Shown here: one piece after another, positions 2,009-44,423 of the stretch
Numbering within the stretch: the first letter of the stretch is position 1
Layout: every line of letters begins with the position of its first letter
NCBI GenBank assembly: GCA_903994795.1
Contig: CAJEYI010000006.1
Coordinates: 1-45,269, forward strand
Source of the DNA: an uncultured bacterium
GTDB taxonomy: Bacteria > Patescibacteriota > Minisyncoccia > Phycocordibacterales > Phycocordibacteraceae
Reading direction: 5' to 3'
DNA length: 45,269 bases
Made by a program: the position numbers and the translations under genes
Notes under the pieces: model-generated
Told to the model about the DNA's origin: nothing
Seen by the model: the letters and a program-made list of their open reading frames with translations, nothing else
Database searches by the model: none

Positions 2009-2012
2009 ACAA

Positions 2013-2222: not shown

Positions 2223-2458
2223 GCGTTGTGATTAGTGTGCTCAGTATAAAAAGTAGTGGGTAGCACAAAACCCGCTACCAGGAGTCCCGAAGGACCTATA
2301 TGAGTTTCCCCATATAACGCGATGAACGCCCTGATAACGGGTTTTCTGGATTCATCGCGATTTTGGACCATGCCACTGGAAACCAATGGTTTAGGCCCGC
2401 CAGCCGGAGCTGGTATTTATAGGTTATCTCACTTTAGGTGTTCTGCGAAGGGGGTCGA
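2223..2458 (-). ncRNA. Six-hairpin intergenic region, candidate structured RNA
   Basis: This gap contains a run of perfect short stems: 2400-2404/2409-2413, 2380-2384/2388-2392, 2319-2326/2351-2358 with an inner 2329-2331/2339-2341, 2297-2302/2311-2316, 2284-2287/2292-2295 and 2259-2264/2274-2279. Read on the minus strand two of the loops are UUCG and UCCG, tetraloops typical of stable RNA; on the plus strand they would be CGAA and CGGA. That favours minus-strand transcription, together with the AlbA_2 and immunity genes. It matches no RNA family I can name. Confidence 0.5.
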
Positions 2459-3499: not shown

Positions 3500-3562
3500 T
3501 GCTATATTTTACCAATATTCCCCCTCCTTGACTCCCCCACCCATTCTGTCATCCATTGATAT

Positions 3563-4891: not shown

Positions 4892-4901
4892 AATTAGAAG
4901 C

Positions 4902-4907
4902 TATAAT
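4902..4907 (+). promoter_or_regulatory. -10 box of the C5-methyltransferase gene
   Basis: A perfect TATAAT ends 9 nt before the ATG at 4917, so the transcript would be leaderless or nearly so. No SD is present. Confidence 0.6.
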
Positions 4908-4916
4908 ATTAATAAC

Positions 4917-6332
4917 ATGAGCCAATTGAGTAAAAAAGTAGATATTCTTAACTCTAAAGGAGAGTGGGTCAGATCTGAGCGAGAAAGAAGGTCTTTAAGT
5001 CAGGCTCGAGTGGCTAAGTCTCTAAGTATTCCACAGTACATTCTATCTGCATGGGAAACAGGCAAAGAACCTATAACAGAAAACGGGCTGAACTCTATTT
5101 CCGAGTTCTTTGTAGATTTTGATATCAAGAATCAAAACGGTGAAATTTCTTTTGCAAAGAGACGAGTGCCTAGATCTTTTACTTATTCAAAAAAAATGGA
5201 TTTAAATAATCATCTTGAATACGTAGCAAATACAGTTATTGAACAAGAAGAGATTGAAGCGAATGATGCTGCACCAAAAGCAATTGCGCTATTTGCAGGA
5301 ATAGGAGGAATGTCACTAGGTCTTAAACAGGCCGGATTTAATGTAGTAGGTCATGTTGAATTTGATAAACCAGTACGAGATATTTATGAAAAGAACTTCA
5401 AGAAAAGTAGGTATTTGGGTTCAGACATAAGGGATGTGTCTAGCAAGGAAGTATCCAAATGGAAGGAAGAATTTGGTGAGATAGAGATTCTTGCGGGAGG
5501 ACCTCCCTGCCAAGGTTTTAGCCTTGCAGGAAAGAGGAATGTTTTTGACCCACGAAATCAACTCTTCAATGAATTTGCTCGTGTAGCAAAAATATTGCAA
5601 CCCAAATTTGTAATACTTGAAAATGTGAGAACCCTTTTATCCATGGAAGCTCCAGATGGATCTTTAATAAAAGATTATCTAATTTCTGCTTTTGATAAAG
5701 CAGGATACGTTTGTCAGTACAGAGCGATTAATGCAGCTGATTATGGAGTTCCTCAGTCCAGAGAAAGAGTAATATTTATTGGAACAAGAAAGACGAAAAA
5801 TGGACTACAGAAATGTCTTTTCCCAGAAGCTACTCATAGCGACAAAGAAACTGGCAGCTTACTAGGAAACCTAAAACCCTATCGGACTTTTAGAGACGCA
5901 ACTAAGGATTTAGAGGGACTCGAATCTGGTGAGAAGTCCGAAAGAGATATGTGGCATTTCGCGGTCTCTCATCCCGATCATGTAATCGAGATGTTGAGGG
6001 ATGTACCCGAGGGAAAGAGTGCTCATGAGAATCCTGATCCAAAACGGAGACCTACAAGTGGCTATAACACCACTTACAAACGCCTCAAATGGGACGAGCC
6101 ATCTTCAACAATAAGTACTAATTTCAGTATGATATCTGGCTCAAGAAATGTGCACCCCTCAAATACTCGAGCACTTACAGTGAGAGAGGCTATGAGATGT
6201 CAGACTTTTCCCGATAGTTTCATATTGCCTGGCAAACTTGGGAATATAAGAAAAGGCATTGGAAACGCAGTTCCGCCTCAGTTAGCAAAAGTATTGGGTG
6301 AATATCTAAAAGAAATCTCGGATTCCTTATAG
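4917..6332 (+). CDS. HTH-fused C5-cytosine DNA methyltransferase
   Basis: Modification half of a probable type II restriction-modification pair. Residues 15-65 form an XRE-type helix-turn-helix. The methyltransferase follows: FAGIGG (126-131) for AdoMet, GGPPCQGFS (194-202) with catalytic Cys198, ENV (235-237), then the QSRERV motif and the C-terminal GNAVPP motif. At 471 aa it is complete. N-terminal HTH fusions of this kind can repress their own promoter, as known for several Dcm-like RM methylases. The stop overlaps the stop region of the convergent gene at 6327-7304 by 6 bp, the typical head-on layout of an RM unit. Confidence 0.93.
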   Translation: MSQLSKKVDILNSKGEWVRSERERRSLSQARVAKSLSIPQYILSAWETGKEPITENGLNSISEFFVDFDIKNQNGEISFAKRRVPRSFTYSKKMDLNNHLEYVANTVIEQEEIEANDAAPKAIALFAGIGGMSLGLKQAGFNVVGHVEFDKPVRDIYEKNFKKSRYLGSDIRDVSSKEVSKWKEEFGEIEILAGGPPCQGFSLAGKRNVFDPRNQLFNEFARVAKILQPKFVILENVRTLLSMEAPDGSLIKDYLISAFDKAGYVCQYRAINAADYGVPQSRERVIFIGTRKTKNGLQKCLFPEATHSDKETGSLLGNLKPYRTFRDATKDLEGLESGEKSERDMWHFAVSHPDHVIEMLRDVPEGKSAHENPDPKRRPTSGYNTTYKRLKWDEPSSTISTNFSMISGSRNVHPSNTRALTVREAMRCQTFPDSFILPGKLGNIRKGIGNAVPPQLAKVLGEYLKEISDSL

Positions 6333-7304
6333 TTTATAGAAATACCCTGCTTGCAGATTAAATTGTAGCTGAGTTGGATGCTGCTTCTGCCCTCCGCGCT
6401 GCATCTGGATAAAACCAAATCGTGGAGCTAAGTGCTCAGAAGGATCATCTTTGTATCGACCCTTTCTGATCTTGTATGGTCTAGTTGAAAATCCACCGAT
6501 AGAACCCGAGTGCTTAATTAATTCATCGATTCTAAAAATAGCCACTTCCATATTCTCAAGACTCTTACTAGCTACCGTCTGGTGAAGAAGAAATTCTGGA
6601 GCGAATGGGTCTGAAAGATATGCCTTCTGTAAAAGGATTTTACTTATCTCCTTTTGCTTTTTTGAAAAAAGACTTTCCCACTCCGTACGACCTGCTTTAG
6701 GTAGTTCCTCCCAAAACCATCGATCTGGATCTGCTAATCTCGTATTTTTATTAAAAGCTTTTGCGTCTAAAGGTCGAAATCCTATGTCACCACAAAACAT
6801 CTTTAACGCTTCTTCTGCCTTTACTGAGACATCAATACCATTGCGGCGTAAGAGACTTGAAAATGCAGAAGCAGTTGTGAAATAAAGTTGATCGTTAGTG
6901 GGAGTACTTTTATTGCAGGTTTTTACTGAAACCCCACTACTTATTACTTCTTTGTTTGCCCACAATTTAAGTAAGATATCACTTTTACTTTTTGTAATTA
7001 AATTTCCTTCCTCGTCTATCAGCTCGTCTCCCATGCCAGAAGTAGCTAGTCCTCCAAGCCACCACGCTTGAACCTTATCGAGCTTCTTTATCTCCAAGGA
7101 ATTAATTACATAACTAAGAAGAAAGAATGCAGGATCTCCATTAAAGATATGCTTTGATTCTTTTGAATAAAGACTCTTATCCTTCAGATCAAGGCTATTA
7201 ATCCTTGAAGTGAGATACTTTTCAAAAGAATGGCCTTTATCTCTGCCAACTGTACCAGCTAAAATCTGGGCACCATGCTTTTTGTCCGTGGGAATCTGTG
7301 CCAT
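6327..7304 (-). CDS. Probable type II restriction endonuclease partner (PD-(D/E)xK-like)
   Basis: A 325-aa protein convergent with the C5 methyltransferase. I do not recognise a named family. A plausible PD-(D/E)xK core is visible: an N-terminal helix with Glu29 (HSFEKYL), then Asp109 in KSDILL, then the GVSVKTC strand with Lys128, in the order and spacing expected for D-x(n)-x-K nucleases. The C-terminal half is rich in Arg/Lys and ends in an RFGFIQMQRGG segment that may bind DNA. Position beside the methylase is the main argument for a restriction enzyme; catalytic assignment is inference. Confidence 0.65.
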   Translation of the reverse strand: MAQIPTDKKHGAQILAGTVGRDKGHSFEKYLTSRINSLDLKDKSLYSKESKHIFNGDPAFFLLSYVINSLEIKKLDKVQAWWLGGLATSGMGDELIDEEGNLITKSKSDILLKLWANKEVISSGVSVKTCNKSTPTNDQLYFTTASAFSSLLRRNGIDVSVKAEEALKMFCGDIGFRPLDAKAFNKNTRLADPDRWFWEELPKAGRTEWESLFSKKQKEISKILLQKAYLSDPFAPEFLLHQTVASKSLENMEVAIFRIDELIKHSGSIGGFSTRPYKIRKGRYKDDPSEHLAPRFGFIQMQRGGQKQHPTQLQFNLQAGYFYKL

Positions 7305-8011: not shown

Positions 8012-8869
8012 CTATTTTCGCAGGTTTACGTTCGTTAGAAATCCAGGAAGCTTTAGATTCTGGAATGGATTTAGATTCGTAAACGAGAGAGCACACCTTG
8101 TCTGCAGCTCTGCTTTGTCATCAGTACTCAGACTTAGTGTAGTTGCGGTATTTTCTGGATACATAATTGCGTCTGGATTTGTATTGTGATCGAGGCCAAG
8201 TGAGTGACCGAATTCGTGTGCCATAAGTCTAATAAGTTGCGTGTTGTTTTTGAATTCAAATAAATCAATTCGCGATACTCCAAACTGCTTCACGTAGTCC
8301 CCTTCTTCAAAATCTACTCCTGCTTGCGTATTAAACGCAACAGCATTCGAATTCACTTGATCAATCTGCGCATTTAGCAAACGTACTTGATCCTGGAGCT
8401 GCGCTGCGGAAGCATTCAGAGAATCAACTTCAGAATTTAGCGTTGCAACATCGACTCCGCTTGCTTTGTCATTTTGGTATTTTTGTTTTAGCGCATCGTA
8501 GTTTGATTGAAGAGCTGCAATATTTGCTTTTTCCGCAATGACCTCGTCCTGCTGCTGAGAAATTGTTTTTCCGATATTGGTTTGTATCTGGCGATTATCA
8601 TAAATCAAATTCATTGGCATACTTGCACCTGCGCTGTACTGAAGGACCATATGCCCTGCTTCAGTATTCCAAATATCTGCAGCCTTCTGTGCATCTGCAA
8701 TAAAGTCTGTCTGACTAATTCCAAAACGTGTATCAAACTCACCAACCTTATACTGAATTGGCTGAGCACATGGTCGATTCGTATACACATAGTATGCTGA
8801 TCCACCAAGCAGACACACGAGCACAATAAAGAAAAAGATGTCTGAAAGCGTGTGAGATCTAGGCATCAT
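8012..8869 (-). CDS. Membrane-anchored matrixin-like zinc metalloprotease
   Basis: A 285-aa protein from the ATG at 8869. It has an N-terminal membrane helix (about residues 10-30) and an extracytoplasmic part that begins like a matrixin domain (ADIWNTEAG), is interrupted by a coiled coil of about 80 residues, and resumes with the zincin motif HEFGHSLGLDH near residue 218 and a Met-turn-like IMYP. All three zinc ligands and the catalytic Glu are present. It starts inside the end of dnaX (11-bp overlap), so it is probably translationally coupled to it, though a functional link is not obvious. The coiled-coil insertion in the catalytic domain is unusual. Confidence 0.85.
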   Translation of the reverse strand: MMPRSHTLSDIFFFIVLVCLLGGSAYYVYTNRPCAQPIQYKVGEFDTRFGISQTDFIADAQKAADIWNTEAGHMVLQYSAGASMPMNLIYDNRQIQTNIGKTISQQQDEVIAEKANIAALQSNYDALKQKYQNDKASGVDVATLNSEVDSLNASAAQLQDQVRLLNAQIDQVNSNAVAFNTQAGVDFEEGDYVKQFGVSRIDLFEFKNNTQLIRLMAHEFGHSLGLDHNTNPDAIMYPENTATTLSLSTDDKAELQTRCALSFTNLNPFQNLKLPGFLTNVNLRK

Positions 8870-9938
8870 GTGTAGTGGCGAGCTCAAGTATTGCAAGCTC
8901 AAGTGGTAGCGAAGGGATTGGAGAGAAACGCATTCGTTCCGTAGCATCGAGCAGTACACGAAGCGTCTTGTGTGTGATCTTTGATTCTTTTGGAAGCGCA
9001 ATCTTTTCTACTTCCTCGAATGTGTCGTTACCAAGTTCATCCTTTATCTCTAAGCGAAGCTCAGGAGCATAGCGAACGAGCAGAATAGTGCGGATAAGTT
9101 CGAGAACGAGAGACAAATACAATGCCATATCAACGCTTTCTGCGGCAGTCCTCCGGACTGCCGCAAGAGCTGCATCTGTATTCCCTTCTGACAATGCTAG
9201 TGCGAGTGCGTGTACTAACGCGTGCTTCGGTGCACCTGTTTGTTGCTCGGCGTTTTCAAGCGTGACAACATCCGCCTTCTTACCCGTATCACTTGCGTGA
9301 GTTCCTGCAAGCACTTTCTCTAGTATTGAAAGTGAGTCACGATACGATCCATCACCTAGAAGTGCAACGAGCTCTGCAACTCCTTTTTCGAGCGTAAAGC
9401 CTTCGCGCAGAGCAATCTCTGTGACGTGTTTTGTGAGAAGAGCTCGTGTTGGTTTTTTAAATTCATATACCTGGCAACGTGACTGCACAGTTTCCGGGAC
9501 TTTAGAAAGCTCAGTCGTTGCAAGTATGAAAATTACATATGCAGGTGGTTCTTCAAGAGTTTTTAGAAATGCATTCCACGCACCCTTTGAAAGCATGTGG
9601 GCCTCATCAAGAATGTAGACTTTGTAAGTTGAATCAAATGGGAGCGTGTAGACATTTTCCGCAAGAAGACGAATATCATCCACGCTATTGTTAGAGGCCG
9701 CATCTATTTCATACAAATCTCTGTCACTACACCCAAGTTCACGTGCAAAAATACGTGCAATAGAGGTCTTTCCAAGTCCGCGTGATCCAGCAAAGAGGTA
9801 CGCGTGTCCAATCTTCTGCGAAGCAATCTGTTCTGCGAGCGCATTGGTTATGTGTTCCTGTCCTACAATGTCCTTAAAGCTTGCAGGACGATACGCACGA
9901 TAAAGCGACTGGTGTGAGGAATTGGATGCATGTGCCAT
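8859..9938 (-). CDS. dnaX: DNA polymerase III clamp-loader subunit gamma/tau
   Basis: AAA+ motor of the clamp loader. The chosen ATG (9938) gives 359 aa. Walker A GSRGLGKTS is at 51-59, Walker B is DEAH, followed by the sensor-1 ATTE segment and the SRC motif. The four-cysteine zinc module normally found between Walker A and the EIDAASN motif is missing: only about 11 residues separate the two. No tau C-terminal extension is present. A TATAAT box ends 6 nt before the ATG, so the message is probably leaderless; the upstream TTG start would lie before this promoter. The metalloprotease gene overlaps its 3' end. Confidence 0.93.
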   Translation of the reverse strand: MAHASNSSHQSLYRAYRPASFKDIVGQEHITNALAEQIASQKIGHAYLFAGSRGLGKTSIARIFARELGCSDRDLYEIDAASNNSVDDIRLLAENVYTLPFDSTYKVYILDEAHMLSKGAWNAFLKTLEEPPAYVIFILATTELSKVPETVQSRCQVYEFKKPTRALLTKHVTEIALREGFTLEKGVAELVALLGDGSYRDSLSILEKVLAGTHASDTGKKADVVTLENAEQQTGAPKHALVHALALALSEGNTDAALAAVRRTAAESVDMALYLSLVLELIRTILLVRYAPELRLEIKDELGNDTFEEVEKIALPKESKITHKTLRVLLDATERMRFSPIPSLPLELAILELATTHDA

Positions 9939-21904: not shown

Positions 21905-22759
21905 ATGATAGATAGAAAAAAAATAATTGTAGTCGCAGGGCCTACGGCATCTGGCAAGTCTAAAGAAGCCGTAAGACTCGCAAAGGAGCGTGATGGCGAA
22001 GTAATTTCTGTCGATTCACGTCAAATATACAAAGGACTTGATATTGGAACAGAAAAGACGACCAAGGAGGAAATGTCCGGAATTCCGCACCACCTTATAG
22101 ATATACGTGAGCCATCAGAGTCGTACAGCGCGGGAGAATTCGCACAAGATGCAAAGCGATTAATTGATGAAATCATGGCTCGTGGAAAAGTGCCCATACT
22201 TGCAGGTGGTACACATTTCTATTTCGATGCACTGATCTATGGTCTCCCGGAAATTCCACAGGACGCGCTCGTACGAGAAGAAATAGAAAGACTGACTGAC
22301 GATGAAATAATTGAGGAGGTACGTGCAAAAGATCCGGCAAGATTCTCACAACTAGACCCCGCAAACCGTCGCAGACTTATTCGCGCACTTGAAATTATCC
22401 GAACTCAAGGACGTGTGCCTGAACGTCCACGAGATGTATCTGCATCGGAATACGAAGTTGAGTGGGTAATTATCAATCCTGAACGAGATGTGTTGCGTGA
22501 GCGAATTGATACGCGACTCGCACAAGCACTAGAGAATGGACTTGTCGAGGAGGTCGAGCGAGTCCGCGAGCTCGTTGGAGATGAGCGCCTCAATGAACTC
22601 GGACTTGAATATCGAGTGGTTGGAGAATACCTTCGCAGTGAACGAACCGAGGAATCCTTGCTCTCTACTCTTTCTTCAAAACTTTGGCACTACGCACGTC
22701 GCCAAAAAGCATGGCTCCGAAAGCTCGCAGCTACAGCGAACACGCACGATACACTGTAA
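21905..22759 (+). CDS. miaA: tRNA dimethylallyltransferase
   Basis: Adds a dimethylallyl group to A37 of tRNAs reading UNN codons. 284 aa. P-loop AGPTASGKS at 11-19, then the VDSRQIYKGLDIGT segment (DSRQ motif), the GGTHFY motif, and the RRRLIRALEI helix. No SD is present. The ATG follows tRNA-Leu(CAA) after 7 nt, so the gene is probably translated from a processed tRNA-mRNA transcript. The 3' end overlaps the convergent pilin-peptidase gene by 29 bp. Confidence 0.95.
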   Translation: MIDRKKIIVVAGPTASGKSKEAVRLAKERDGEVISVDSRQIYKGLDIGTEKTTKEEMSGIPHHLIDIREPSESYSAGEFAQDAKRLIDEIMARGKVPILAGGTHFYFDALIYGLPEIPQDALVREEIERLTDDEIIEEVRAKDPARFSQLDPANRRRLIRALEIIRTQGRVPERPRDVSASEYEVEWVIINPERDVLRERIDTRLAQALENGLVEEVERVRELVGDERLNELGLEYRVVGEYLRSERTEESLLSTLSSKLWHYARRQKAWLRKLAATANTHDTL

Positions 22760-23744
22760 TATCCCAGTGGTTTAGACTTGCTTCTTGCACATATTGATTA
22801 CCACACTTATCTGTCCAGAATGGATCTGAACTTCCCGGAGTATCTCCAGTTCTTGTTCCTCCATAGGTAAATCCTTTAATGATTGTATCTAGCTTAGTGC
22901 CAAGTCGTATATCAACCTTGTACCCATTTCCATGGCTATATGGTCCCGTAGCATGTCCTGGCTCACTTCCTCCAGATACCACAAGACCACATCCAGCAGG
23001 ACCATTACCGCACTTGTCACTCATATTTATAATTTGTTGAATTGTATCTTGCTGAAGACCGCCAACATTTGTACACCCTGTGCCACTACTACCAGATGCG
23101 CAGGCATCATGATTAATTGACACACTGGCTCCCGCGAGCTGTGCTCGAACCTGTCCCTCATTTCCACTTGCAGTATTGGTTTGCACTGCAGAGACTTGGG
23201 CTGACCCTGTACCCCCGGTACCATTTGCAGGAGTGTTCAAAGCAGCAAATGAACTTGGGGGCTTGCTTGGGGCAATACACTGTGCACCTTGATCTTCTCC
23301 AAGTATAGAGTTCCAGGGACCGAAGGCAGCGTTGCTTGGGTTATAGACAGCCTTCATAAGTGAATCAACGAGAAGAAATGCTCCAAGTGCAATCAGAAGC
23401 CCAATTGCTGCATTCATGATTCTTTTATTTGCAAGACTTCTCCCTTCTGGATTCCCCCTGCTCCAAATATATGAGAAGCCCGCAAGTGCAATTAATAGTG
23501 TCATGAATACAACAGCCAATGATATACCAAGATTCATTGTCCGTTGGAAGGTATTAAGAATACAGCCCCAACCAGGCGCAGAAGTTTGCGCAGTTACACC
23601 ATTTGCATTAATTGGTGTCAGGCAGTTGCATGCTGGAGAGATAATTGGACCAAAAAATGGAGTTGTGGCTGCATGGACTGTTGGTACGGCAAATACAAAC
23701 AGAAGAGCAGTAACTGCTGTGGCTTTTAGTAATAATCCATTCAT
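22731..23744 (-). CDS. Secretion-pilin-like membrane protein fused to an M15/VanY-like peptidase domain
   Basis: 337 aa. Signal peptide (1-26), a short exterior segment with Cys39/Cys41 and APGWGCIL, and two membrane helices (about 72-95 and 110-130) joined by a basic loop (RSLANKRI), the layout of VirB2/TrbC-like T4SS pilins of CPR bacteria. A Gly/Thr/Ala linker leads to a C-terminal domain (about 205-337) with the M15/VanY zinc pattern: His264 and SHGNGYKVD (His271, Asp278), then NHWDIT (His326, Asp328). This suggests a zinc DD- or LD-peptidase that trims peptidoglycan. It starts 1 nt after the stop of the upstream gene, so it is likely coupled. Domain calls are by motif only. Confidence 0.7.
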   Translation of the reverse strand: MNGLLLKATAVTALLFVFAVPTVHAATTPFFGPIISPACNCLTPINANGVTAQTSAPGWGCILNTFQRTMNLGISLAVVFMTLLIALAGFSYIWSRGNPEGRSLANKRIMNAAIGLLIALGAFLLVDSLMKAVYNPSNAAFGPWNSILGEDQGAQCIAPSKPPSSFAALNTPANGTGGTGSAQVSAVQTNTASGNEGQVRAQLAGASVSINHDACASGSSGTGCTNVGGLQQDTIQQIINMSDKCGNGPAGCGLVVSGGSEPGHATGPYSHGNGYKVDIRLGTKLDTIIKGFTYGGTRTGDTPGSSDPFWTDKCGNQYVQEASLNHWDITVYRACSL

Positions 23745-23745
23745 A

Positions 23746-24342
23746 CTATGAAGGAAGCTGGACAGAACCTGGACAGAAACTAAAGCCTAGATTTTTCCCA
23801 CCATATTGAGGATTTACGTATGTGGTAGTAATGACGAGATATTTCAGTGTACACATTTGTTGCTGAGTTATTCCAAGCTGAGTTTGAAGTGCTTTTTCCG
23901 CCTCAAGCCGAGCTGTTCCGAGTGGTTCTGTTGCTAGTCCTAAGATAAAAGTTCCATCTAATTTATTATATACAATATTGTAATCGGTGTTCGATCCTGC
24001 CTTTGGACAATTACCAGAGCTTGTGCATGCTCCACTACTTCCTGCAATATAGTATGAGTTTTTATTTGCTGGGTCTTGAACTGTAACACCATTACGTATA
24101 AAGTTTTTTGTCGCAATTGTTGAGTTTGCGGTCGGTATCATAATTGCATCAGGAGAACTAGTAGTGACCACACCAACCTGAGAGCTTGAGGAAGTACTGT
24201 TTGTCTGAGAAACACCTAAGTTAAAATTTGCTGTCTTATTTTGACCAGAAGTACCGTGAACAAAAAAACTAAAATATATAATTATGCCAATCAAAAGAAA
24301 GGCAACAATTCCTAAAATTATCCAAATGTAGTATTGCTTCAT
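23746..24342 (-). CDS. Membrane-anchored hypothetical protein between the two pilin-hydrolase fusions
   Basis: 198 aa, not recognised. One N-terminal membrane helix (about 5-28), a Ser/Thr/Asn-rich linker, and an exterior domain (about 70-198) with three or four cysteines and no catalytic motif I can name. TATACT lies 7 nt before the ATG (leaderless). It begins 18 bp after the upstream pilin-transglycosylase gene and ends 1 nt before the next one, so the three genes probably act together. Confidence 0.65.
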   Translation of the reverse strand: MKQYYIWIILGIVAFLLIGIIIYFSFFVHGTSGQNKTANFNLGVSQTNSTSSSSQVGVVTTSSPDAIMIPTANSTIATKNFIRNGVTVQDPANKNSYYIAGSSGACTSSGNCPKAGSNTDYNIVYNKLDGTFILGLATEPLGTARLEAEKALQTQLGITQQQMCTLKYLVITTTYVNPQYGGKNLGFSFCPGSVQLPS

Positions 24343-24360
24343 AGAAATAAGTATAACTCA

Positions 24361-25410
24361 CTACCCGCCAGCATTCGCAACACAGGCCTGATGTGCAGCG
24401 GTACTATCTTTATTCCCCGTCCAAGCACTATAACTACCATGATTAGCCTTAATATTGCAGTCCGCCACAACCGCGCTGCAGGTCAGACTTGCTGCTGCTG
24501 TTTGACACTCAGTTAGTAATGCTCCTGGGATTGCATTTCCGTGAACATCAAACGCATTTGCACAATTAAGTGGCCCAGAAACACCGGCGGCCTGGTAACA
24601 AGCGGCGTTATTAAAGCAAGCACTATTTCCTTTTAATGTGATTTGAAATGGTCCCCATGCCGTTGATGGCGGTAGGCTTTTTGCTCCATTCCAGTTGTAG
24701 TTTTGGTCTATAGATCCACAACCACTTTCAGGACCAGCAAAACATGCGAGTACTGCTGCCTCTGTACTCGACATTTGAACTCCACCATCTGCTGCGGCCT
24801 GTTGTACAACCGCAGCATTACATGCTCCAGTAGTTCCGGGAACACTAGCTGCTTGTGTTGCAGGTGAGCCAGACACAGAAGATCCACCAGTACCATTTGC
24901 AGCAGAATTAAGTGCAGGTAGACTACTTGGCAAGGATTTAGGAGCAAGGCAGTCTGATCCGACTGTAGGTCCAAGAATTGAATTCCAAGGACCAAAGAAA
25001 CTGTCAGGGTTATATATAACCTTCATAATCGAATCAACTATAAGCCACGAGCAAAGCACTATAAGTAGCCCGATGACTGCGTTTAGAATTCGCTTATTTG
25101 CAAGCGAGCGCTTTTCAGCACTCCCTCCACTCGTCATATATGTAAACCCAGCCAATGCGATAAAAACCGTAATGATGACTGTTGTGAATCCGACAAGAAA
25201 ATCAATAAGATTTTGAATTGTTGCAAGTATACAACCCCAACCAGGAGCAGAGGCAGGGCTAGCACAGTTACATGCATCGGGAATAATGTGAAAATTAGGA
25301 CTCAACACCGACACGGCCGAAGATGTGGCAGCATGAGCAAATTCAGGTGCAATTACAAGAAAAAGCAGTGCACCTATTGCAATACGGAATGTAGTAAAAG
25401 AAAAACGCAT
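24361..25410 (-). CDS. Secretion-pilin-like membrane protein fused to a lysozyme-like transglycosylase domain
   Basis: 349 aa from the ATG at 25410, which begins a normal signal peptide (1-27); the upstream in-frame ATG at 25524 overlaps the tRNA-Trp gene. The chassis matches the 22731-23744 protein: APGWGCIL, two helices around a RSLANKRILNA loop, and FFGPWNSILG. The C-terminal part (about 195-349) is Cys-rich and looks lysozyme/transglycosylase-like, with a candidate catalytic Glu228 in FAGPESGC and WGPFQI at 252-257, comparable with the G-x-x-Q motif of that fold. It would cut glycan strands, as VirB1 does in T4SS. Hydrolase identity is inferred from short motifs. Confidence 0.65.
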   Translation of the reverse strand: MRFSFTTFRIAIGALLFLVIAPEFAHAATSSAVSVLSPNFHIIPDACNCASPASAPGWGCILATIQNLIDFLVGFTTVIITVFIALAGFTYMTSGGSAEKRSLANKRILNAVIGLLIVLCSWLIVDSIMKVIYNPDSFFGPWNSILGPTVGSDCLAPKSLPSSLPALNSAANGTGGSSVSGSPATQAASVPGTTGACNAAVVQQAAADGGVQMSSTEAAVLACFAGPESGCGSIDQNYNWNGAKSLPPSTAWGPFQITLKGNSACFNNAACYQAAGVSGPLNCANAFDVHGNAIPGALLTECQTAAASLTCSAVVADCNIKANHGSYSAWTGNKDSTAAHQACVANAGG

Positions 25411-29328: not shown

Positions 29329-31686
29329 TTAGTACCCTTTATTTTCAATCAGTTTCTCAAGCAATTCTCTCGGGAAGATTGGCTTATTCTCAGCTAGACC
29401 CTGGTGATATAAAACAGTTGACGGAGTCAATCCTGGCAGAGTGTTTACCTCAATAATTACCACACTTCCATCGTGCGTGTTTATAAATGCATCAATACGG
29501 GAATAGCCCTTTATACCAATACCATCAGCCACTGACTTTATAAGCTTCTTTGTACGGGCGAGTGCTGTAGCACTAATAATGCTTTCTGGTGGTGGTGTGA
29601 TATTTATACCTGTTCCACCCTGGAACTTTTCTTCCACTGAAAGTACTTCGCCTTCTGCCACAGTTAAGCTAGGATTCAAGACTTTTAGCTTTCCTTTTTC
29701 TTCGACTACTCCAACTGTTATCTCGAGCAAGCCTGATTTCTGTATATGCTTTAGCGTATTCCCCACCACCTTCACAGTATCTGTCTCAATAAACTTTTCA
29801 AAAAGCAGCTCTTCGATACCTTCGAGTGGCATCTCAATTATATTTGCTTGATTGGCAAACGTTCCTTGTGGGATTCGAGTTATCTTGTTTTTCACAGCCT
29901 TGAGATATTTCTGTAGGTCTGATTCTGAATATAAATGCACAACGCCGGATGAGCACCCATCAGTTCGTGGCTTCACAATAACTGTTTGTGCGTTTAGTTG
30001 ATCTTTCACATCCTCCCAAAGCTGTTTAGTATTTTTTGATTCAATATCTGAAAACTTCATAACTTTTCCAAGTGTTGTAGAGACTCCGGAAATGTGAAGG
30101 CTTTCGATAAAGGTGTTTGTGTTCCACTTATCTGCACATAGTTCAGAAACTTTTGAGTCTGGGCCATTAAATCGTATGCCTTTATCTGCAAGAGTTTTTT
30201 GTAGGACACCGTTCTCGCCTTCTCCTCCATGTAGCGCGATAAACACAAACGGCGCAACTTTGAGGAACTCTGACATCGTAAGCTTTGTGGGCAGTGTGTT
30301 TATCTCGCTCACTTCCTCGGAACTAAGCGCTAGTCGCATTTTCACTTTTTGCTCAAGATATCCTAGTCGCTCGTGTGCCTGCTCAGCATGCTCACAATTT
30401 TCAACTATTTCCTCCACTGTGTGATTCAAACAAAATGCATACGGAAGTTTCCAGACAGCTCCTTGCAAATCAAGCAGATACGGTTGTGGCTCGTACTTTT
30501 TAGACCCGCGAAGTTTTAGCCATACGTTTGTACCGCTCATAAGTGACACTTGTCGTTCTGATGTCTTTCCTCCGAGTAATATTGGCACAGGCTTTCTTGT
30601 AAGCTTTGTGGTGGCTTTTGCACTAGGAAACTTGATGCCGTATCGTTCGCAGGCTCTCGACACTACAAATCGAAGTGTGTCCGCGTGCGTCATCCCAATT
30701 CGTGAAGCCTGCTGGAACAAGAAGCTGTTTTGTTCCATTCCACTAATTGGGTTGAAATCTGAAAACCAGATATTTCCATCGTCGAGTACCCACCCATCGA
30801 AGCGAGCAAAGTCGCGCATACCTAGAAGTGCAAACAACTGCTCGGCCTGTACTTGAATCTTTTCAATCACTTCATTACTAAATCTGGGTGGGCAGTGATA
30901 GGTAACCTGGCGAGTCGGTAGATACTTCTTCCTGAAATCAAAGATCTGGTTTTCCGAATATGCTGTCTCGATTTCAGTAGGAAGTACTGCGACCGGGAGA
31001 CCAAACCGATTTTGTAAAATTATTGTCGTAAACTCTATACCTTTTGCAAAAGGCTCTATGACAACTCTTGTGTCCATCTTCTGTGAGAAAATAATTTCTG
31101 CTTTCTCAAGTGCCTCCTCAACGGTAGTTACTGAAAACACACCGATACTTGAGCCACCACTTGCTGGCTTAACAATAGCTCTTTTTATAGAGTACTCCTT
31201 AAAGAAAGCACTCACAGCTTTCTTGTGATCCTTTGCGTGAATTTTCAAAACTGTAGATGGCAGTGTGTAGAAACCTTTTGATGTAATAAATTGATTCACC
31301 ACATACTTATCAAACGCCTGTCTGCAAGCCACAGAACCGGAGCCAACAAAAGGAATCTTGTGCTTTTCAAGAAATGCCTGAAATTGTCCGTCTTCTCCAT
31401 ATGCACCATGCATGACAGGAAATACAATATCTACACTTTTGAGAAGCGTTATGAGAGCCTTGTCAGTTAGAGGTGTGGCTGTCTGATGGAGTTTGAAGTC
31501 AAAGTCCGAAGGGGTGTTGGAGTACAGTTGAGAATTTGAGATTTTGTACGCATTTTTCTGGTGATCTAAATAAATCGCCACAATCTCAACTTCTGGACTG
31601 CTCAAGTGATCTAGCACTGACCGTGCAGAATTTAAGGAAATTCCGCGCTCAGCTGATGGCCCTCCGCATACTAAACCAACTTTCAT
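29329..31686 (-). CDS. Tandem D-alanine-D-alanine ligase fusion (two Ddl modules)
   Basis: 785 aa containing two complete Ddl-type ATP-grasp modules, about 1-360 and 365-785. Each begins with the GG-x-S-E-R motif (GGPSAER; GGKTSER), has an HG-x-x-GE-x-G motif (HGAYGEDG; HGGEGENG), an ATP-loop (ASGGSSIGV; TDGCSSGVV), a KYLP / KFQGG omega-loop equivalent, and a metal-binding end (DFNPISGM; EVNTLPGL). Single Ddl proteins are about 300-370 aa. The product is D-Ala-D-Ala, or a related dipeptide, for peptidoglycan precursors. The first module has Asp where Glu is usual in the metal motif, so the two modules may differ in role. Confidence 0.9.
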   Translation of the reverse strand: MKVGLVCGGPSAERGISLNSARSVLDHLSSPEVEIVAIYLDHQKNAYKISNSQLYSNTPSDFDFKLHQTATPLTDKALITLLKSVDIVFPVMHGAYGEDGQFQAFLEKHKIPFVGSGSVACRQAFDKYVVNQFITSKGFYTLPSTVLKIHAKDHKKAVSAFFKEYSIKRAIVKPASGGSSIGVFSVTTVEEALEKAEIIFSQKMDTRVVIEPFAKGIEFTTIILQNRFGLPVAVLPTEIETAYSENQIFDFRKKYLPTRQVTYHCPPRFSNEVIEKIQVQAEQLFALLGMRDFARFDGWVLDDGNIWFSDFNPISGMEQNSFLFQQASRIGMTHADTLRFVVSRACERYGIKFPSAKATTKLTRKPVPILLGGKTSERQVSLMSGTNVWLKLRGSKKYEPQPYLLDLQGAVWKLPYAFCLNHTVEEIVENCEHAEQAHERLGYLEQKVKMRLALSSEEVSEINTLPTKLTMSEFLKVAPFVFIALHGGEGENGVLQKTLADKGIRFNGPDSKVSELCADKWNTNTFIESLHISGVSTTLGKVMKFSDIESKNTKQLWEDVKDQLNAQTVIVKPRTDGCSSGVVHLYSESDLQKYLKAVKNKITRIPQGTFANQANIIEMPLEGIEELLFEKFIETDTVKVVGNTLKHIQKSGLLEITVGVVEEKGKLKVLNPSLTVAEGEVLSVEEKFQGGTGINITPPPESIISATALARTKKLIKSVADGIGIKGYSRIDAFINTHDGSVVIIEVNTLPGLTPSTVLYHQGLAENKPIFPRELLEKLIENKGY

Positions 31687-32988: not shown

Positions 32989-35709
32989 CTATACTGTAGC
33001 ACCCGCCTTTACTTTTGGCTTTGCTGTGGACTTGCTGGTTTTAGCTTTTAGGGCTGATTTTCGGACGTCAAATACTGGCTGGCCATTTTTAAGAGTCACA
33101 GTCACAGATCCTCCCTCCATAACTCCCTGATCTACCATAAGTGAGGCAATTGGAGTCAAAATCTTGTCCTGTATGGCACGTTTGAGTGGTCGTGCGCCAT
33201 ACTGAGGGTTATACCCAATTTCAGCAAGCCATGCCCGAACTTCGGGTGCAATGGTAAGTGTGATGCGTTTCGCAGTAAGGCGAGCAAGCACTTCTGTGAT
33301 TTGTCGCTCAACAATACCAGAAAGTGAATCTTTGCTGAGCACATCAAAGATCACAATGTCGTCGAGACGATTCAAGAACTCTGGACGGAAGTGTTCTTTA
33401 AGACTTCCTGTCACACGCTCTTTCACTTCCTCATACTGTGCTGCGACTTCTGCACTACTGTTTCCGAAACCAATGCGTGCCATACGGTCAATGTACTCTG
33501 CGCCAATGTTTGAGGTAAGAATTATAATGGTGTTTTTGAAGTTCACCTTTCTTCCCTTTCCGTCGGTAAGATGACCGCTATCGAGTACCTGGAGCAGGAT
33601 ATTGAAAACTTCTGGATTTGCCTTCTCGATCTCATCGAAGAGCACGACTGCGTACGGTCGGTGACGAATGCGTTCAGTGAGTGAGCCTGCTTCTTCGTAT
33701 CCTACGTAACCCGGAGGTGCTCCAATAAGTTTTGCTACAGAGTGCTTCTCCATAAACTCACTCATATCGATACGAATAAGGGCATCTGTGTCATTGAACA
33801 TAAACTCAGCAAGCTTTCGTGAGAGCTCAGTTTTTCCAACTCCAGTAGGCCCCATGAAGAGGAACGAGCCTATTGGGCGATTTGGATCTGCAATACCTAC
33901 ACGCGAACGCTTCACTGCGTCTGTAATTATCTTCACTGCCTTCTCCTGACCAATGACGGCTGCTTTTAGTTCAGCTTCCATTCGTGCAAGTTTTGATGCT
34001 TCCTCTTCGAGCATGCGTGCCACCGGAATACCAGTCCACCTTGAAACCACCCCAGCAATTTCTTGCTCAGTAACTTCTTCATGAAGAATGCGACGTGACT
34101 TCTGAAGAACCTTGAGACGTTTCAACTTTGACTCAAGTTCCTTTTGAAGAACTGGTATTTTGCCATAACGGATTTCTGCAACCGTACCCAGATCTGCCGA
34201 TGACTCTGCAGCATCTGCTTGCGTACGAAGTTTGTCCAACTCGGTCTTAATGGCTCGAATACCATCAACCACTTCCTTTTCGTTTCTCCATTTGAGCTCG
34301 AGCTCACCTGTCTTCTCACGAAGATCTGCGATTTCTTTCTCAATTACTTTGAGCCGTTCACGAGTCTCTTTTGCGTGCTCTGGAACTTTTCCGGAGATCG
34401 TCTCATCATCTTTCTGAAGTGCCTGCTTTTCGATTTCGAGACGACGAATGCGACGATCAGTCTCTTCAAGCTGTGGTGGTTTGTTTTCTAGCGCAATTCG
34501 TAGACCAGCAGCAGCTTCATCGATAAGGTCGATAGCTTTGTCTGGAAGGAAACGGTCTGTGATGTAGCGTGAAGAAAGCTCAACTGCATTCACGATCGCA
34601 CCATCGGTAATTCGCACACCATGGAAAAGTTCGTATTTGTCACGAAGGCCTCGCAGAATAGCAACGGCATCTTCGATTGAAGGCTCGTTCACAAACACAG
34701 ACTGGAAACGTCGTGTAAGGGCTGCGTCTTTCTCGATGTGCTGTTGGTATTCCTTGAGTGTTGTGGCGCCGATGATGCGCATTTCACCTCGTGCAAGCGA
34801 TGGTTTAAGCATTTCAGATGCGTTCACTGATCCTTCTGCAGCACCTGCACCCACAAGTGTATGAAGCTCGTCGATAAAGAGTATTACTTTCCCTTCTGAC
34901 TTCTCTACTTCTTTCATCACATTTTTCATACGCTCTTCGAACTCTCCGCGATACTTTGTGCCAGCGATCATAAGTCCGAGGTCAAGTGACAAAAGCTCTT
35001 TGCCTTTAAGTGATTGTGGCACATCTCCTTGTGCAATACGCGCAGCAAGACCTTCTGCAATTGCAGTCTTTCCAACTCCTGCTTCACCAATAAGCACAGG
35101 ATTGTTCTTTGTGCGTCGTGAAAGAATTTGAATCACACGGTTAATTTCCTGATCACGCCCAATGACTGGATCAAGATTATTTTCTGAAGCCATTTTTGTG
35201 AGGTTTCGAGTGTACTTAGCTAGTGCACGAAAACGCTTTGGCTCTGCAACCTGTCCATCTTTGCCAGTCTTAAGTTCTTTCAAGATCGCCATGACTGATT
35301 CTTCATCAATTTTAAATCGCGAAATAGTATCCGCAGCTGGACCTGGGTGCTCAAGCACTGCAACAAAGAGATGCTCAGTTCCAATAAAAGGATCATTCAT
35401 TTTTGCAGCAATCTTGCCGACACCCTCAAGTATTTGAGCAAGTTCTGGTGTTAGGTAGAGGTTATATGACGGAGAAAGTGTCGAAGATGCTTCTGGAGTT
35501 TCGAGGAGCTCGAGGAGTGTATCAGAAAGCAGCATGGTATCGATGTCCATGTGATCAAGTACTGAAAAGACCAAGCTTTCTTCCTGGTGTACAAGCGCAG
35601 TGAGAAGATGTAGCGGACTCACGTGGTTTTGCCCACGCTCAATAGCCAGCTCATGCGCCTTTTTTACCGCTTCTTTTGCTTTGGTTGTCCAGTTTTTGAA
35701 TGGTGGCAT
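32989..35709 (-). CDS. clpB: ClpB-type AAA+ disaggregase
   Basis: 906 aa chaperone that works with DnaK to pull apart aggregates. An N-terminal Clp-N domain (1-145), NBD1 with Walker A GEAGVGKT (208-215), a coiled-coil middle domain (about 400-530) and NBD2 with GPTGVGKT and the [11 protein letters not shown] pore loop. The long middle domain identifies ClpB rather than ClpA/ClpC, and no ClpP-binding loop was noticed. A Lys/Ala/Thr-rich tail of about 30 residues follows. TATACA lies 9 nt before the ATG; I see no CIRCE-type operator. Confidence 0.93.
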
Positions 35710-41337: not shown

Positions 41338-41616
41338 CTAATTAATTACTACCAGAATACTCCCCAAGAACGTTATAATCGCCGTAGTTCCAAACATAAT
41401 CATAAGACCTATTAATCCCCAAAGAATGTGATCCTGACCCTTTTTGCGAGCTTCAGCATCATCTGAGCCACGTATGTACTCAATTACTCCCCACAGAAAC
41501 ACAACAAAGGCAGCAATTGCTAGAAGTGTAATCACGGGAATAACTATAAGTGCCGTAACCTTTGCAAGAAAGGCATCAAGAACTGCATTGGCTGGAGGAG
41601 GTGCGTTTGTGGGCAT
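41338..41616 (-). CDS. Two-helix T4SS-pilin-like membrane protein
   Basis: 92 aa. Two membrane helices (about 18-48 and 66-90) joined by the charged loop GSDDAEARKKGQD, the signature shared by the pilin-like proteins of this window and reminiscent of VirB2/TrbC. It has no signal peptide; a short Pro/Ala/Asn-rich N-terminus precedes helix 1. TACTAT lies 6 nt before the ATG. Confidence 0.7.
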   Translation of the reverse strand: MPTNAPPPANAVLDAFLAKVTALIVIPVITLLAIAAFVVFLWGVIEYIRGSDDAEARKKGQDHILWGLIGLMIMFGTTAIITFLGSILVVIN

Positions 41617-41639
41617 ATATATATAGTACCAGCTGATAG

Positions 41640-41671
41640 CAGAAAACCGCGTCCTTTGACACGGTTTTCTG
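41640..41671 (-). terminator. Hairpin terminator after the 41692 gene
   Basis: 14-bp stem 41640-41653/41658-41671 with one G-U pair; the T-run is part of the 3' arm on the minus strand. Confidence 0.6.
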
Positions 41672-41691
41672 TGGAGAGACTGAACTAAAAA

Positions 41692-42045
41692 TTAGTGCTG
41701 ATATAGAGCTTGTGGATAGTTCGGCGCATTTGATTTTAAGCTAACAGATCCGACCAAGATATTTACCAGTCCCCACACTGAGACCATGACAAAGAATCCA
41801 ATAAGTCCGTAAAGCATAAGGCTTTTTCCGCCTTCTCTTTTTTCTTCATCGCCTCCATTTAAGATAAAGGTTTGGAACACTCCCCAGATAAAGACGATAA
41901 ATGCAACTGCAAATAGAACTGGGACTGCAACTTGATTTATTATATTCATAATAAACGTACCGAGGCTTTGCACACTATCAACTGTTTGTGCGAAGGCGAA
42001 AGCTGGTACTGCGAATGCTGCTGCGAGTAATGCTAATTTCTTCAT
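41692..42045 (-). CDS. Secreted two-helix T4SS-pilin-like protein
   Basis: 117 aa. A signal peptide (1-19, ending AFA-Q) is followed by the paired helices (about 30-60 and 73-100) around the loop NGGDEEKREGGKS and a 15-residue tail. The WG motifs on both helices (FIWGV, SVWGLVN) match the paralogues. This is the simplest pilin-like member and the best candidate for a true pilus subunit of the set. Confidence 0.75.
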   Translation of the reverse strand: MKKLALLAAAFAVPAFAFAQTVDSVQSLGTFIMNIINQVAVPVLFAVAFIVFIWGVFQTFILNGGDEEKREGGKSLMLYGLIGFFVMVSVWGLVNILVGSVSLKSNAPNYPQALYQH

Positions 42046-42145
42046 AGAATAAATAGATAATTAAGGTAACGCCGAGTTACTCACTTAAGAATAGCCTGTA
42101 CAGGGCGTACGTCAACGAGTTTGAGGTGGGTAATGTGGAAAAAGA

Positions 42146-43165
42146 CTAGTAACAGTTTCCGTCTACTCCGAGAGTCAATCCTGCAGCATCACACGATGCT
42201 GCTGTTTCGTTACCAGGTGCTGATACATAACCATTATTAGTTGTATCTGTACTACCAACTGTTGAAGCGTCAACACAGTTTCCATATTGATTATTTACTT
42301 GACCATCTGGACATGCACTATATAAACCGCTGTAAGTACCCGTGGTGTCCGTCGCACATGGCACACCAACTGCTTTAGGCGAACCATCTGGACACGTTCC
42401 TTGTGAAGGGTCTGTCCAGTTACCACTTGAATCTTGCACTAAACAAGGAACTCCAATTTCTTTTGGTGACCCGTCTGGACAAGTACCTTGAGACGATGAC
42501 CCTCCACCTGTAAACCAATTATAAATTCCGTTCGCAGCACCACCAATTCCATTAGTAATTCCGCTCAATAAATTATCGGATCCTGCACTTCCAGTTAAGG
42601 TATTGGATCCACCTCCTCCTGAAACGGAGTTTCCCCCATTTCCAGATGCTCCATTAGTTAGTGCATCATATACGCTTTGCTGATTACCACCTGAATTCGA
42701 CGGAACATATGTGCCCCCTTGATTTCCAGAACCATAGCCACCTCCTGACGAAGAATTGGTACTTCCATACGTAGGGAACGTAAAGGACGGAGCGCCCGAC
42801 TGAGAGAATCCAAACGTTGGTATGTCAGGACGAGTAGCATTATCAAAACCAAATGAGTTTACAAGCAAATTAATGAGTCCCCAAATAGAGAACATCACGG
42901 CGAAACCTATAACTCCCCACATCAGAAAGCGCTGACCCTCTTTCACTTTTTCTTCATCACCTCCTCCTGCAATAAAATACTGATATATCTTAAATATGAA
43001 AAGAGCAAATGCAATTGCAAATATGACCGGAACCACTACAAGGTTCAGTATGTTCATCACGTAGTTGAACAATGAAGGAATGTCGTTTACGTTTTGGGCG
43101 AATGTGATGAAAGGAGTAAAAAGTAATACCGACCCGAGCACTAACTGTATACGTAATAGTTTCAT
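42146..43165 (-). CDS. T4SS-pilin-like protein with a long Ser/Gly-rich, Cys-repeat tail
   Basis: 339 aa. Signal peptide (1-23), the two-helix pilin module (about 33-104; loop GGGDEEKVKEGQ) and then about 235 exterior residues: a Ser/Gly/Asn-rich spacer (about 120-230) and Cys repeats of the form CPDGSPK-x-x-GVPC (twice), plus a third shorter CPDGQ unit and further Cys pairs. The tail looks like a surface-exposed adhesive or spacer. TATTCT lies 7 nt before the ATG. Confidence 0.72.
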   Translation of the reverse strand: MKLLRIQLVLGSVLLFTPFITFAQNVNDIPSLFNYVMNILNLVVVPVIFAIAFALFIFKIYQYFIAGGGDEEKVKEGQRFLMWGVIGFAVMFSIWGLINLLVNSFGFDNATRPDIPTFGFSQSGAPSFTFPTYGSTNSSSGGGYGSGNQGGTYVPSNSGGNQQSVYDALTNGASGNGGNSVSGGGGSNTLTGSAGSDNLLSGITNGIGGAANGIYNWFTGGGSSSQGTCPDGSPKEIGVPCLVQDSSGNWTDPSQGTCPDGSPKAVGVPCATDTTGTYSGLYSACPDGQVNNQYGNCVDASTVGSTDTTNNGYVSAPGNETAASCDAAGLTLGVDGNCY

Positions 43166-43221
43166 AAGCTTAAGAATAACAGGGATTTATAAATAGTGAG
43201 GAGGTTATACACTTTTCACGT

Positions 43222-43479
43222 TTAACCATTTCCAACTACAGTGTTTAGTGTATTCAGAAGAATATTAACTAAGCCCCATACACTGAAAAGCACTCCCAGC
43301 CCAATAAGACCAAAAAGAAGTGCCTGCTTCCCTTTCTCTTTTGCCTCTTCCCCGTCCTCGATAAAGAAATATTTAATAATATTTATAAGGAAGAATATAA
43401 ATGCAAGTGTGAAAATAACAGGCACAACAAAGCTATTTACAATATTTACGATATTTACAACGACCTGATCAAATCTCAT
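43222..43479 (-). CDS. Two-helix T4SS-pilin-like membrane protein
   Basis: 85 aa. The helices (about 8-33 and 47-75) flank EDGEEAKEKGKQ; SVWGLVNILLN is shared with paralogues. It has no signal peptide. The start overlaps the stop of the upstream gene by 4 bp (ATGA), so translation is coupled. Confidence 0.72.
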   Translation of the reverse strand: MRFDQVVVNIVNIVNSFVVPVIFTLAFIFFLINIIKYFFIEDGEEAKEKGKQALLFGLIGLGVLFSVWGLVNILLNTLNTVVGNG

Positions 43480-44423
43480 AAGCCTTGTACGGTAGAAGCA
43501 ATGACCATTGCAATCGCTTGCGCCCCAAGCAAGAGAAGTCCTCCAACTGCAGTCCAGAGTAACGAGGAACGTGCGCTTTGCACTTTCTCAGGATTTCCTT
43601 GTGCCATAACAAATTGGAACCCAACAAATACAAGCATGAGTACTAGGAAAATTGATCCAATTTTTACTACGTAGCCCAAAATCTCTGACAAAAGTGTTGC
43701 AAGATCAGGTGCTTGCAATGGATTCCTAAGAATACCTGATCCTGAAGTATTTGTAGTAGGCGAACCGGTTTGTGTTAGTCCTGCACCACTTACTGTCGAG
43801 CTACACGCAGGATAATTAAGTGTATAGTCGTATGTCTGCTTTGTAAGCAAAACACAGTCATCAAGTACCACAGCTCCGGCCGGCAACTGCCCAATTGAAT
43901 CTCTTTGTGCTGCACATGAACCTTGATCCGAAAACACTTGCCCAGTTATGTCTACACATTGCGGATTTGCTGACGTATTTACTACAGCCACTTCGTATGA
44001 ATATTGGTTGACTGCTGAAGCATCAAGGTTTCTAGAATATGTATATGTGCCATTAGTGACTGTATTTGGGCTCGTAGGCGCAAAACTCAAAGCACTAACT
44101 GAAGCTCCGCATACCGGATTATCAAGTGTGTAATCATAATTAAGCTTTGTAATTTGAGTACAATTATCAAGCACAGATGCGCCAGCTGGGAGTTGGTTAT
44201 TTTCTGTCGCTGTGCAGTCGGCTGCTGTTGGGTATACGCGCTCTGAGATTGCATAACATGCGGGACTTTGGGAAGTATCTAAAACTTTTAGTTCATAGGA
44301 ATACTTGTTTAGCACAGATGAATCAAATGATCTGGAGTATGTATACGTATCCGCATGCGCCGGACTATACGCTAAAAGAAAAAGTGCCGTGAGTACGAGC
44401 GTGCTGTAGAAGTTTTTAATCAT
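43476..44423 (-). CDS. T4SS-pilin-like protein with two exterior repeat domains
   Basis: 315 aa. Signal peptide (1-24). Two tandem repeats follow (about 25-115 and 122-212), each opening with TYTYSR and NxYSYE and sharing Cys positions, an LPAG motif and a Y-D-Y-T-L motif. A linker leads to the two-helix pilin module (about 245-312; loop AQGNPEKVQSARS). The 4-bp ATGA overlaps at both ends tie it to the solute-binding gene upstream and the 85-aa pilin downstream. Confidence 0.75.
   Translation of the reverse strand: MIKNFYSTLVLTALFLLAYSPAHADTYTYSRSFDSSVLNKYSYELKVLDTSQSPACYAISERVYPTAADCTATENNQLPAGASVLDNCTQITKLNYDYTLDNPVCGASVSALSFAPTSPNTVTNGTYTYSRNLDASAVNQYSYEVAVVNTSANPQCVDITGQVFSDQGSCAAQRDSIGQLPAGAVVLDDCVLLTKQTYDYTLNYPACSSTVSGAGLTQTGSPTTNTSGSGILRNPLQAPDLATLLSEILGYVVKIGSIFLVLMLVFVGFQFVMAQGNPEKVQSARSSLLWTAVGGLLLLGAQAIAMVIASTVQGL

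Follow-up and report, generated by a model that had tools for sequence, protein, structure and literature searches.

The window, i.e., the whole analysed stretch of 45,269 nucleotides, contains on its reverse strand two genes for fusion proteins, A (22731..23744, 337 aa) and B (24361..25410, 349 aa). Both proteins comprise a signal peptide and a two-helix pilin-type chassis, followed by a putative M15/LAS-type zinc domain in A and a lysozyme-like domain in B. Between them, on the same strand, lies the gene of a 198-aa protein (C198; 23746..24342) with an N-terminal transmembrane helix (residues 3-30) and a confidently modelled extracytoplasmic domain. Since 18 nt separate B from C198 and 1 nt separates C198 from A, the order B-C198-A looks like a tight three-gene run. 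The reading frame of B is open to 25524, and the start at 25410 yields the signal peptide. The coordinates of A and B had been given correctly in an earlier sequence-only reading of this DNA. Two further genes serve as locus markers: miaA (21905..22759, forward strand), which is convergent to the run and is not considered part of the device, and clpB (32989..35709, reverse strand), which is separated from the fusions by about 7.5 kb of other genes.

The N-terminal ~196 residues of A and B share 49% identity (E 2e-48), and their C-terminal ~150 residues show no relationship. The signal peptides and motifs which the sequence-only reading had found to be shared do occur at matching positions: APGWGCIL, RSLANKR, FGPWNSILG and ANGTGG are located at residues 56, 102, 141 and 173 in A and at residues 55, 101, 139 and 171 in B. 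Given such identity and E-value, the N-terminal similarity is not due to chance, and an assembly artefact was rejected as well because the arrangement recurs in many independent genomes. According to the secondary structure predicted with AF2, the chassis of A (residues 1-160; 23265..23744, reverse strand) forms helices 59-94 and 99-134, while RSLANKR falls in the loop joining them. The pilin-type character proposed for the N-termini was supported by the HMM search, albeit to a different degree for the two proteins. The chassis of B (residues 1-160; 24931..25410, reverse strand) matches the Pfam model T4SS_pilin (PF18895) over residues 64-126 with E 4.6e-8 and 33.5 bits and thus exceeds the curated cut-off of 26.6, whereas A matches over residues 75-126 with E 3.2e-4 and 21.1 bits and stays below it. 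Among 51 fusions, 46 match this model at a threshold of E<=0.01. Furthermore, A matches bare pilins encoded in virB4 operons (phmmer 3e-9 and 9e-7). T4SS_pilin is a small two-helix model and may also describe a plain anchor. Searching the literature for the two Pfam accessions did not bring up any relevant paper.

The tail of B (residues 195-349; 24364..24828, reverse strand) is lysozyme-like, as previously suggested. Its profile hits c-type lysozymes of the PDB with E 6.8e-4 and 1e-4, it aligns with lysozyme C at the A-K-x-E-S segment, and both the helix of the catalytic Glu and the G-x-F-Q-[IV] motif (GPFQI in B) are present. The predicted catalytic Glu228 is invariant in 19 aligned homologues, and comparison with SLT_3-type tails of sibling proteins gave an hhalign value of 96%. 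No SLT domain was found elsewhere in this genome.

For the tail of A (residues 195-337; 22734..23162, reverse strand) an M15/VanY-like zinc site had been proposed, which holds in part. The putative zinc ligands H271, D278 and H326 form an H-x6-D...H motif that is invariant in 27 diverse homologues, those from Actinobacteria included; hence the candidate catalytic residues of both tails are kept across homologues. In the AlphaFold model (domain pLDDT about 92), residues 186-333 resemble the N-domain of Sonic hedgehog, with middling Z-scores of 7.0-7.2 for five entries and an rmsd of 3.5-3.8 over 104-109 residues. This N-domain is a LAS-fold relative of the M15 peptidases. However, none of the Pfam and NCBIfam M15 models matches A, Foldseek returned nothing at E<1e-3 for the model of A, and a profile search of the tail against PDB sequences gave nothing useful. 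The zinc site is thus a candidate one, identified by motif and modelled fold. The family is absent from Pfam and also occurs in Actinobacteria as a stand-alone, apparently secreted domain. An origin from a phage lysin was considered and rejected, as there was no PHROGs match and the tail of A remained unmatched in 50,697 phage records.

The confidently modelled domain of C198 had no match above Z 4 in the PDB, which argues neither for nor against a VirB8/NTF2-like identity. Like the M15a-type domain, C198 defines a protein family for which Pfam has no model. Across relatives, the C198 gene specifically accompanies lysozyme-type fusions and is placed after them.

In about 70 genomes of the genus, the fusions are found at one orthologous chromosomal locus, clpB-fusion-miaA, where relatives have one or two fusion genes. 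Of the 71 loci in the genus, 67 have miaA directly adjacent to the fusion; clpB lies upstream in 45 loci. At least eight tail families, among which the labels M15b and M15c are mostly motif-based, sit on a nearly unchanged chassis. Siblings with the same chassis carry the enzyme families SLT (3.5e-15), SLT_3 (2e-6) and VanY (2.8e-14), and there are non-enzyme tails as well (beta-helix-like, dockerin, coiled-coil-like). A chassis tree of 97 genes requires at least 47 tail changes. The module swapping that the sequence-only reading had noticed is therefore far wider than it appeared from A and B, and this locus allows tail exchange to be followed through about 70 species of a single genus. This exchange is new compared to that reading, as are the pairing of tail types, the association of C198 with lysozyme-type fusions and the link to T4SS operons in relatives.

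Wherever two fusions stand in tandem, one tail is of a glycan-cutting type and the other of a peptidase type (19 of 19 pairs). With shuffled types this pairing has a p of 1.5e-5 over the 19 pairs, which are not phylogenetically independent, and a p of 2e-4 over the 11 distinct combinations. Many relatives possess a glycan-type or a peptidase-type fusion alone, which indicates that both cuts are not always needed.

The sequence-only reading had suggested looking for the same fusion near VirB4/VirB6 in other CPR genomes, and it is present there in other families of the order but not in the present genome. In the former, the gene order PrgI-VirB4-Ig protein-pilin-417 aa-YidC-DnaA is conserved. 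The pilin in this slot is bare and 106-137 aa long in several genomes (e.g., L120-L122, L135, L250, L261), while in nine other families the virB4-operon pilin, near dnaA, is fused to a hydrolase-type domain: M15a in seven (G138, G118, G114, G093, G103, G105 and G108), an M15c-like tail in G097 and Peptidase_M15_4 (7.7e-13) in G122. In a tenth family (G091), an extra slot-type pilin beside the slot carries M23 (3.6e-6). In the genome studied here, no linkage of the cassette to virB4 was found, since the cassette is on contig C6 and virB4 on contig C4, where the slot pilin beside virB4 bears a tail without a recognised hydrolase domain. The window does encode an array of T4SS_pilin-type proteins without hydrolase tails (41338..44423, reverse strand; PF18895 matches), which are possible pilus partners.

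Taken together, A and B are probably VirB1-type wall openers on VirB2-type anchors that serve a Patescibacterial T4SS or pilus. Both would be secreted, membrane-anchored peptidoglycan hydrolases on a VirB2/T4SS_pilin-type two-helix hairpin, with signal peptide and hairpin placing the C-terminal domain outside the membrane. The lysozyme-like domain of B would cut the glycan strand and the M15/LAS-type zinc domain of A the peptide stem, so that both jointly make a hole in the peptidoglycan. C198 might act as a dedicated membrane-anchored partner of the lysozyme domain, be it as regulator, inhibitor or holder. The chassis would allow the enzyme to associate with the pilins of the T4SS or pilus, the tail being swapped between species. 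In Gram-positive T4SSs the job of such a pair would be that of a single two-domain VirB1, for which PMC12857230 (section 10) describes glycan and peptide activities combined on one anchor (TraG of pIP501, PrgK of pCF10, Orf14 of Tn916; ALPHA/BETA/DELTA classes). Unlike these proteins with their single transmembrane anchor, A and B are two polypeptides, each on a two-helix pilin chassis, and their enzyme families are swapped from one species to another. The VirB2-like pilins of Patescibacteria and their arrays (PF18895) possess the same two-helix domain, but no hydrolase tails are described for them in the cited parts of Quinonero-Coronel 2025 and Wang 2023. A further parallel is found in S. 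epibionticum, where peptidase and lysozyme homologues just downstream of virB4 form a T4SS-tied glycan and peptide pair; according to a 2025 survey of Patescibacterial T4SSs, they are essential for epibiotic growth (PMC12102498). The same survey concludes that VirB1 is mostly missing in Patescibacteria with VirB2 and argues that biogenesis of the putative VirB2 pilus can do without VirB1 (PMC12102498). The fusions may be candidates for this 'missing' wall opener, fused onto the pilin itself, and they represent direct targets for studying how these epibionts breach walls.

Other scenarios could be envisioned. The domains might be exchangeable 'drill bits', carried by a pilus on the cell surface or located at the T4SS mouth, that cut the wall of a host or prey and are swapped because wall chemistry differs among hosts. 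The tail changes, at least 47 at one locus among congeners, are what one would expect of variable modules facing a host; in addition, Patescibacteria are thought to be epibionts, and in S. epibionticum growth on the host requires the T4SS together with its pilins (PMC10633639). However, no observation puts A or B beyond the envelope of their producer, the exchange could be neutral if any muralytic activity suffices for the own wall, and this genome has no known host, which leaves us rather doubtful about such a role. One might tentatively speculate that the hypervariable locus with its pilin-mounted, exchangeable heads enables an epibiont to adapt its secretion machine or its pilus to the walls of different hosts while the chassis is kept.

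Alternatively, A and B could be T4SS-independent, anchored hydrolases for growth, division or scavenging, whose hairpin was recruited from pilins as a mere anchor. The position of the genus cassette at clpB/miaA, away from virB4, and the non-enzyme tails on this chassis type fit such an explanation. We nevertheless consider it unlikely, as nine families bear a hydrolase-type domain on the virB4-operon pilin and a tenth has an extra adjoining one, and as tail exchange leaves the chassis nearly constant, a conservation for which a plain anchor would have no need. Highly improbable, in our opinion, are inactive tails with a wall-binding or structural function. Hedgehog does have the LAS fold without known peptidase activity, and E321, the candidate general base of A, is 5 and not 3 residues ahead of H326. 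Yet the zinc-ligand triad and the lysozyme Glu are invariant across deep divergence, and sibling tails belong to well-scored enzyme families (SLT, 3.5e-15; VanY, 2.8e-14; M15_4, 7.7e-13).

Three genes on the minus strand lie exactly where the sequence-only reading had placed them, in the order B (25410-24361), a 198-aa protein termed C198 (24342-23746) and A (23744-22731), with gaps of 18 nt between B and C198 and 1 nt between C198 and A. All four motifs named as common to A and B were found at matching positions. Their N-terminal 196 aa, which include the chassis, are 49% identical (E 2e-48), while the C-terminal ~150 aa, the tails, are unrelated. Each chassis combines a signal peptide with two long helices (residues 59-94 and 99-134 in the AlphaFold model of A), joined by the basic loop RSLANKR. 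According to the positive-inside rule this loop would be cytoplasmic, placing the C-terminal domain outside. Against Pfam T4SS_pilin, B scores above the curated cut-off and A below it.

The tail of B was proposed to carry a lysozyme-like Glu, and this holds: searched against the PDB, its family profile picked up c-type lysozymes (E 6.8e-4 and 1e-4) with the catalytic Glu aligned, and E228 is invariant among the aligned homologues. Furthermore, hhalign relates the tail (96%) to the SLT_3-type tails that sibling proteins bear. For A, an M15/VanY-like zinc site was suggested. H271, D278 and H326 are indeed invariant among 27 homologues from Patescibacteria and Actinobacteria and fit the H-x6-D...H pattern of LAS/M15 enzymes, and neither Pfam nor NCBIfam holds a family matching this tail. 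Its AlphaFold model (pLDDT about 92) resembles the Sonic hedgehog N-domain, a LAS-fold relative of M15, in five entries (Z 7.0-7.2, rmsd 3.5-3.8, 104-109 residues). Since these scores are middling, Foldseek alone returned nothing at E<1e-3, and the candidate general base E321 precedes H326 by 5 rather than 3 residues, the tail of A is likely, though not proven, to be a LAS/M15-type domain. The M15a domain is not confined to pilins. Actinobacteria (Herbidospora, Streptomyces, Nonomuraea and others; L164-L186) encode it as a stand-alone, apparently secreted domain without a Pfam family, and in other parts of the Patescibacteria (L270, L271, L273, L167; e.g. Doudnabacteria) it is borne by proteins that have one TM segment and a charged N-terminus.

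Across 148 related genomes and fetched neighbourhoods, the same chassis is joined to eight or more tail families: LysB, Lys2, Lys3 and SLT of glycan type, and M15a, M15b, M15c and VanY of peptidase type. Pfam backs the SLT, SLT_3 and VanY tails, while the label M15b relies on a weak hedgehog-profile match (E 0.29) and M15c on a conserved H/D/H motif. A single CHAP tail stays below the cut-off (Pfam E 1e-3), and bare chassis occur as well. A 934-aa frame (L151:3084-5888 and L215) joins the chassis to a domain of M15b type plus a long stretch of extra sequence. Within the genus, miaA adjoins the fusion on the opposite strand in 67 of 71 fusion-bearing loci; of the remainder, L187 and L220 are cut by a contig end, and L103 and L192 lack miaA in the stretch read, L103 nevertheless having clpB upstream. 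In 45 loci clpB was found upstream; parB and relA follow. Because this neighbourhood is kept, the 14 different tail compositions all belong to a single orthologous locus. Chassis bearing different tails share up to 78% identity, and a tree of 97 chassis requires at least 47 tail-type changes (minimum 7; shuffled labels 57), in agreement with the module swapping proposed earlier. In this tree the chassis of A and B are each other's closest relatives (support 100/93). Taken with the tail changes, this suggests that chassis were duplicated or converted and tails replaced as well.

Where two fusions stand in tandem (19 genomes), one tail is of glycan and the other of peptidase type in 19/19 cases, in 11 family combinations. 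The corresponding p values (1.5e-5 for type shuffling, 2e-4 for random draw of combinations) overstate the evidence, since the pairs partly share descent. In Gram-positive VirB1 proteins, as described in section 10 of PMC12857230, both cuts are likewise combined, there on one chain and here on two fusions. C198 was detected in 34 of 59 genus genomes and at the same threshold in 0 of 40 others of the order, with outside relatives found later (L088, L276, L279, L281, L283). Its gene directly follows LysB, Lys2 and Lys3 fusions, L099 being the one clear exception, and does not occur next to peptidase-only, SLT and VanY fusions; in L229 it precedes a peptidase fusion, but the contig begins right there. 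In L279 and L281 it still adjoins a Lys2-type domain set in a larger, different frame. Thus, C198 appears to be a partner of the lysozyme domain. Its model is confident (mostly above pLDDT 90) and has no PDB match above Z 4.

The most likely reading of the fusions is that of VirB1-type wall openers on VirB2-type hairpin anchors, which would serve a T4SS or its pilus. In this genome virB4 is found on another contig than A and B, within an operon near dnaA (PrgI-VirB4-TM-Ig protein-pilin (443 aa)-417 aa-YidC-DnaA), whose pilin tail contains no recognised hydrolase domain; the order is the same in most other genomes inspected. Since the genus fusion locus is not at virB4, an anchored hydrolase independent of the T4SS is possible. 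In relatives, however, the expected proximity to virB4 was found. The pilin at this operon position is bare (106-137 aa) in several genomes (e.g. G095, G115, G128, G107, G099, G123), yet bears an M15a tail in G138, G118, G114, G093, G103, G105 and G108; in G097 its tail is M15c-like and in G122 it is Peptidase_M15_4, while G091 has M23 on an extra pilin of this type. Five genomes with such fusions were picked by their match to A; G105, G108, G122 and G091 came from virB4 neighbourhoods fetched irrespective of tails. Thus, in relatives the fusion is a physical part of the T4SS operon. A B-C-A-like cassette occurs in a further family (G132). A search of this genome revealed no SLT domain, and a 2025 survey describes VirB1 as rare in Patescibacteria and pilus biogenesis as not needing it (PMC12102498). 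The sole experimental T4SS study reports that growth on the host requires both the machine and its pilins (PMC10633639). The openers may act on the producer's own wall or on that of a host; fast tail exchange leans toward the host, but is also accounted for by neutral replacement among equivalent enzymes.

The separate parts (pilins, lysozyme, M15, VirB1) are already known, while no description of their pilin-mounted, split and exchangeable arrangement was found in the open-licence literature searched. Judging from the adjacent accessions PF18895 and PF18896, Pfam curators may have been aware of the T4SS_pilin/SLT_3 combination.

Further pilin-type proteins form an array at 41338-44423 (minus strand), including a 315-aa protein with a duplicated ~90-aa 'TYTYSRSxD' repeat ahead of the pilin domain and a 339-aa protein with a Gly/Ser-rich tail. 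In L133:3840-5885 (minus strand) the pilin of the T4SS operon (681 aa) has a long tail without Pfam match whose sequence resembles a right-handed parallel beta-helix, which suggests polysaccharide binding or cleavage, and L128:8838-12656 (minus strand) encodes a VirB4 frame of 1272 aa, double the usual length. Elsewhere in the window, a LOOT RNA (RF03000; 2283-2397, minus strand, 75.1 bits) lies in a region (280-7304) close to tRNA-Gln. This region has the look of an integrated island and encodes a ParB_N/N6-N4 methylase, an SLFN_AlbA_2 protein, a serine recombinase, a DNA methyltransferase and a possible restriction enzyme. A matrixin-type metalloprotease (Peptidase_M10; 8012-9001, minus strand) carries a TM segment and a coiled coil, and a 785-aa fused double Ddl (29329-31686, minus strand) consists of tandem D-Ala-D-Ala ligase units, the Pfam N- and C-terminal models matching twice each.
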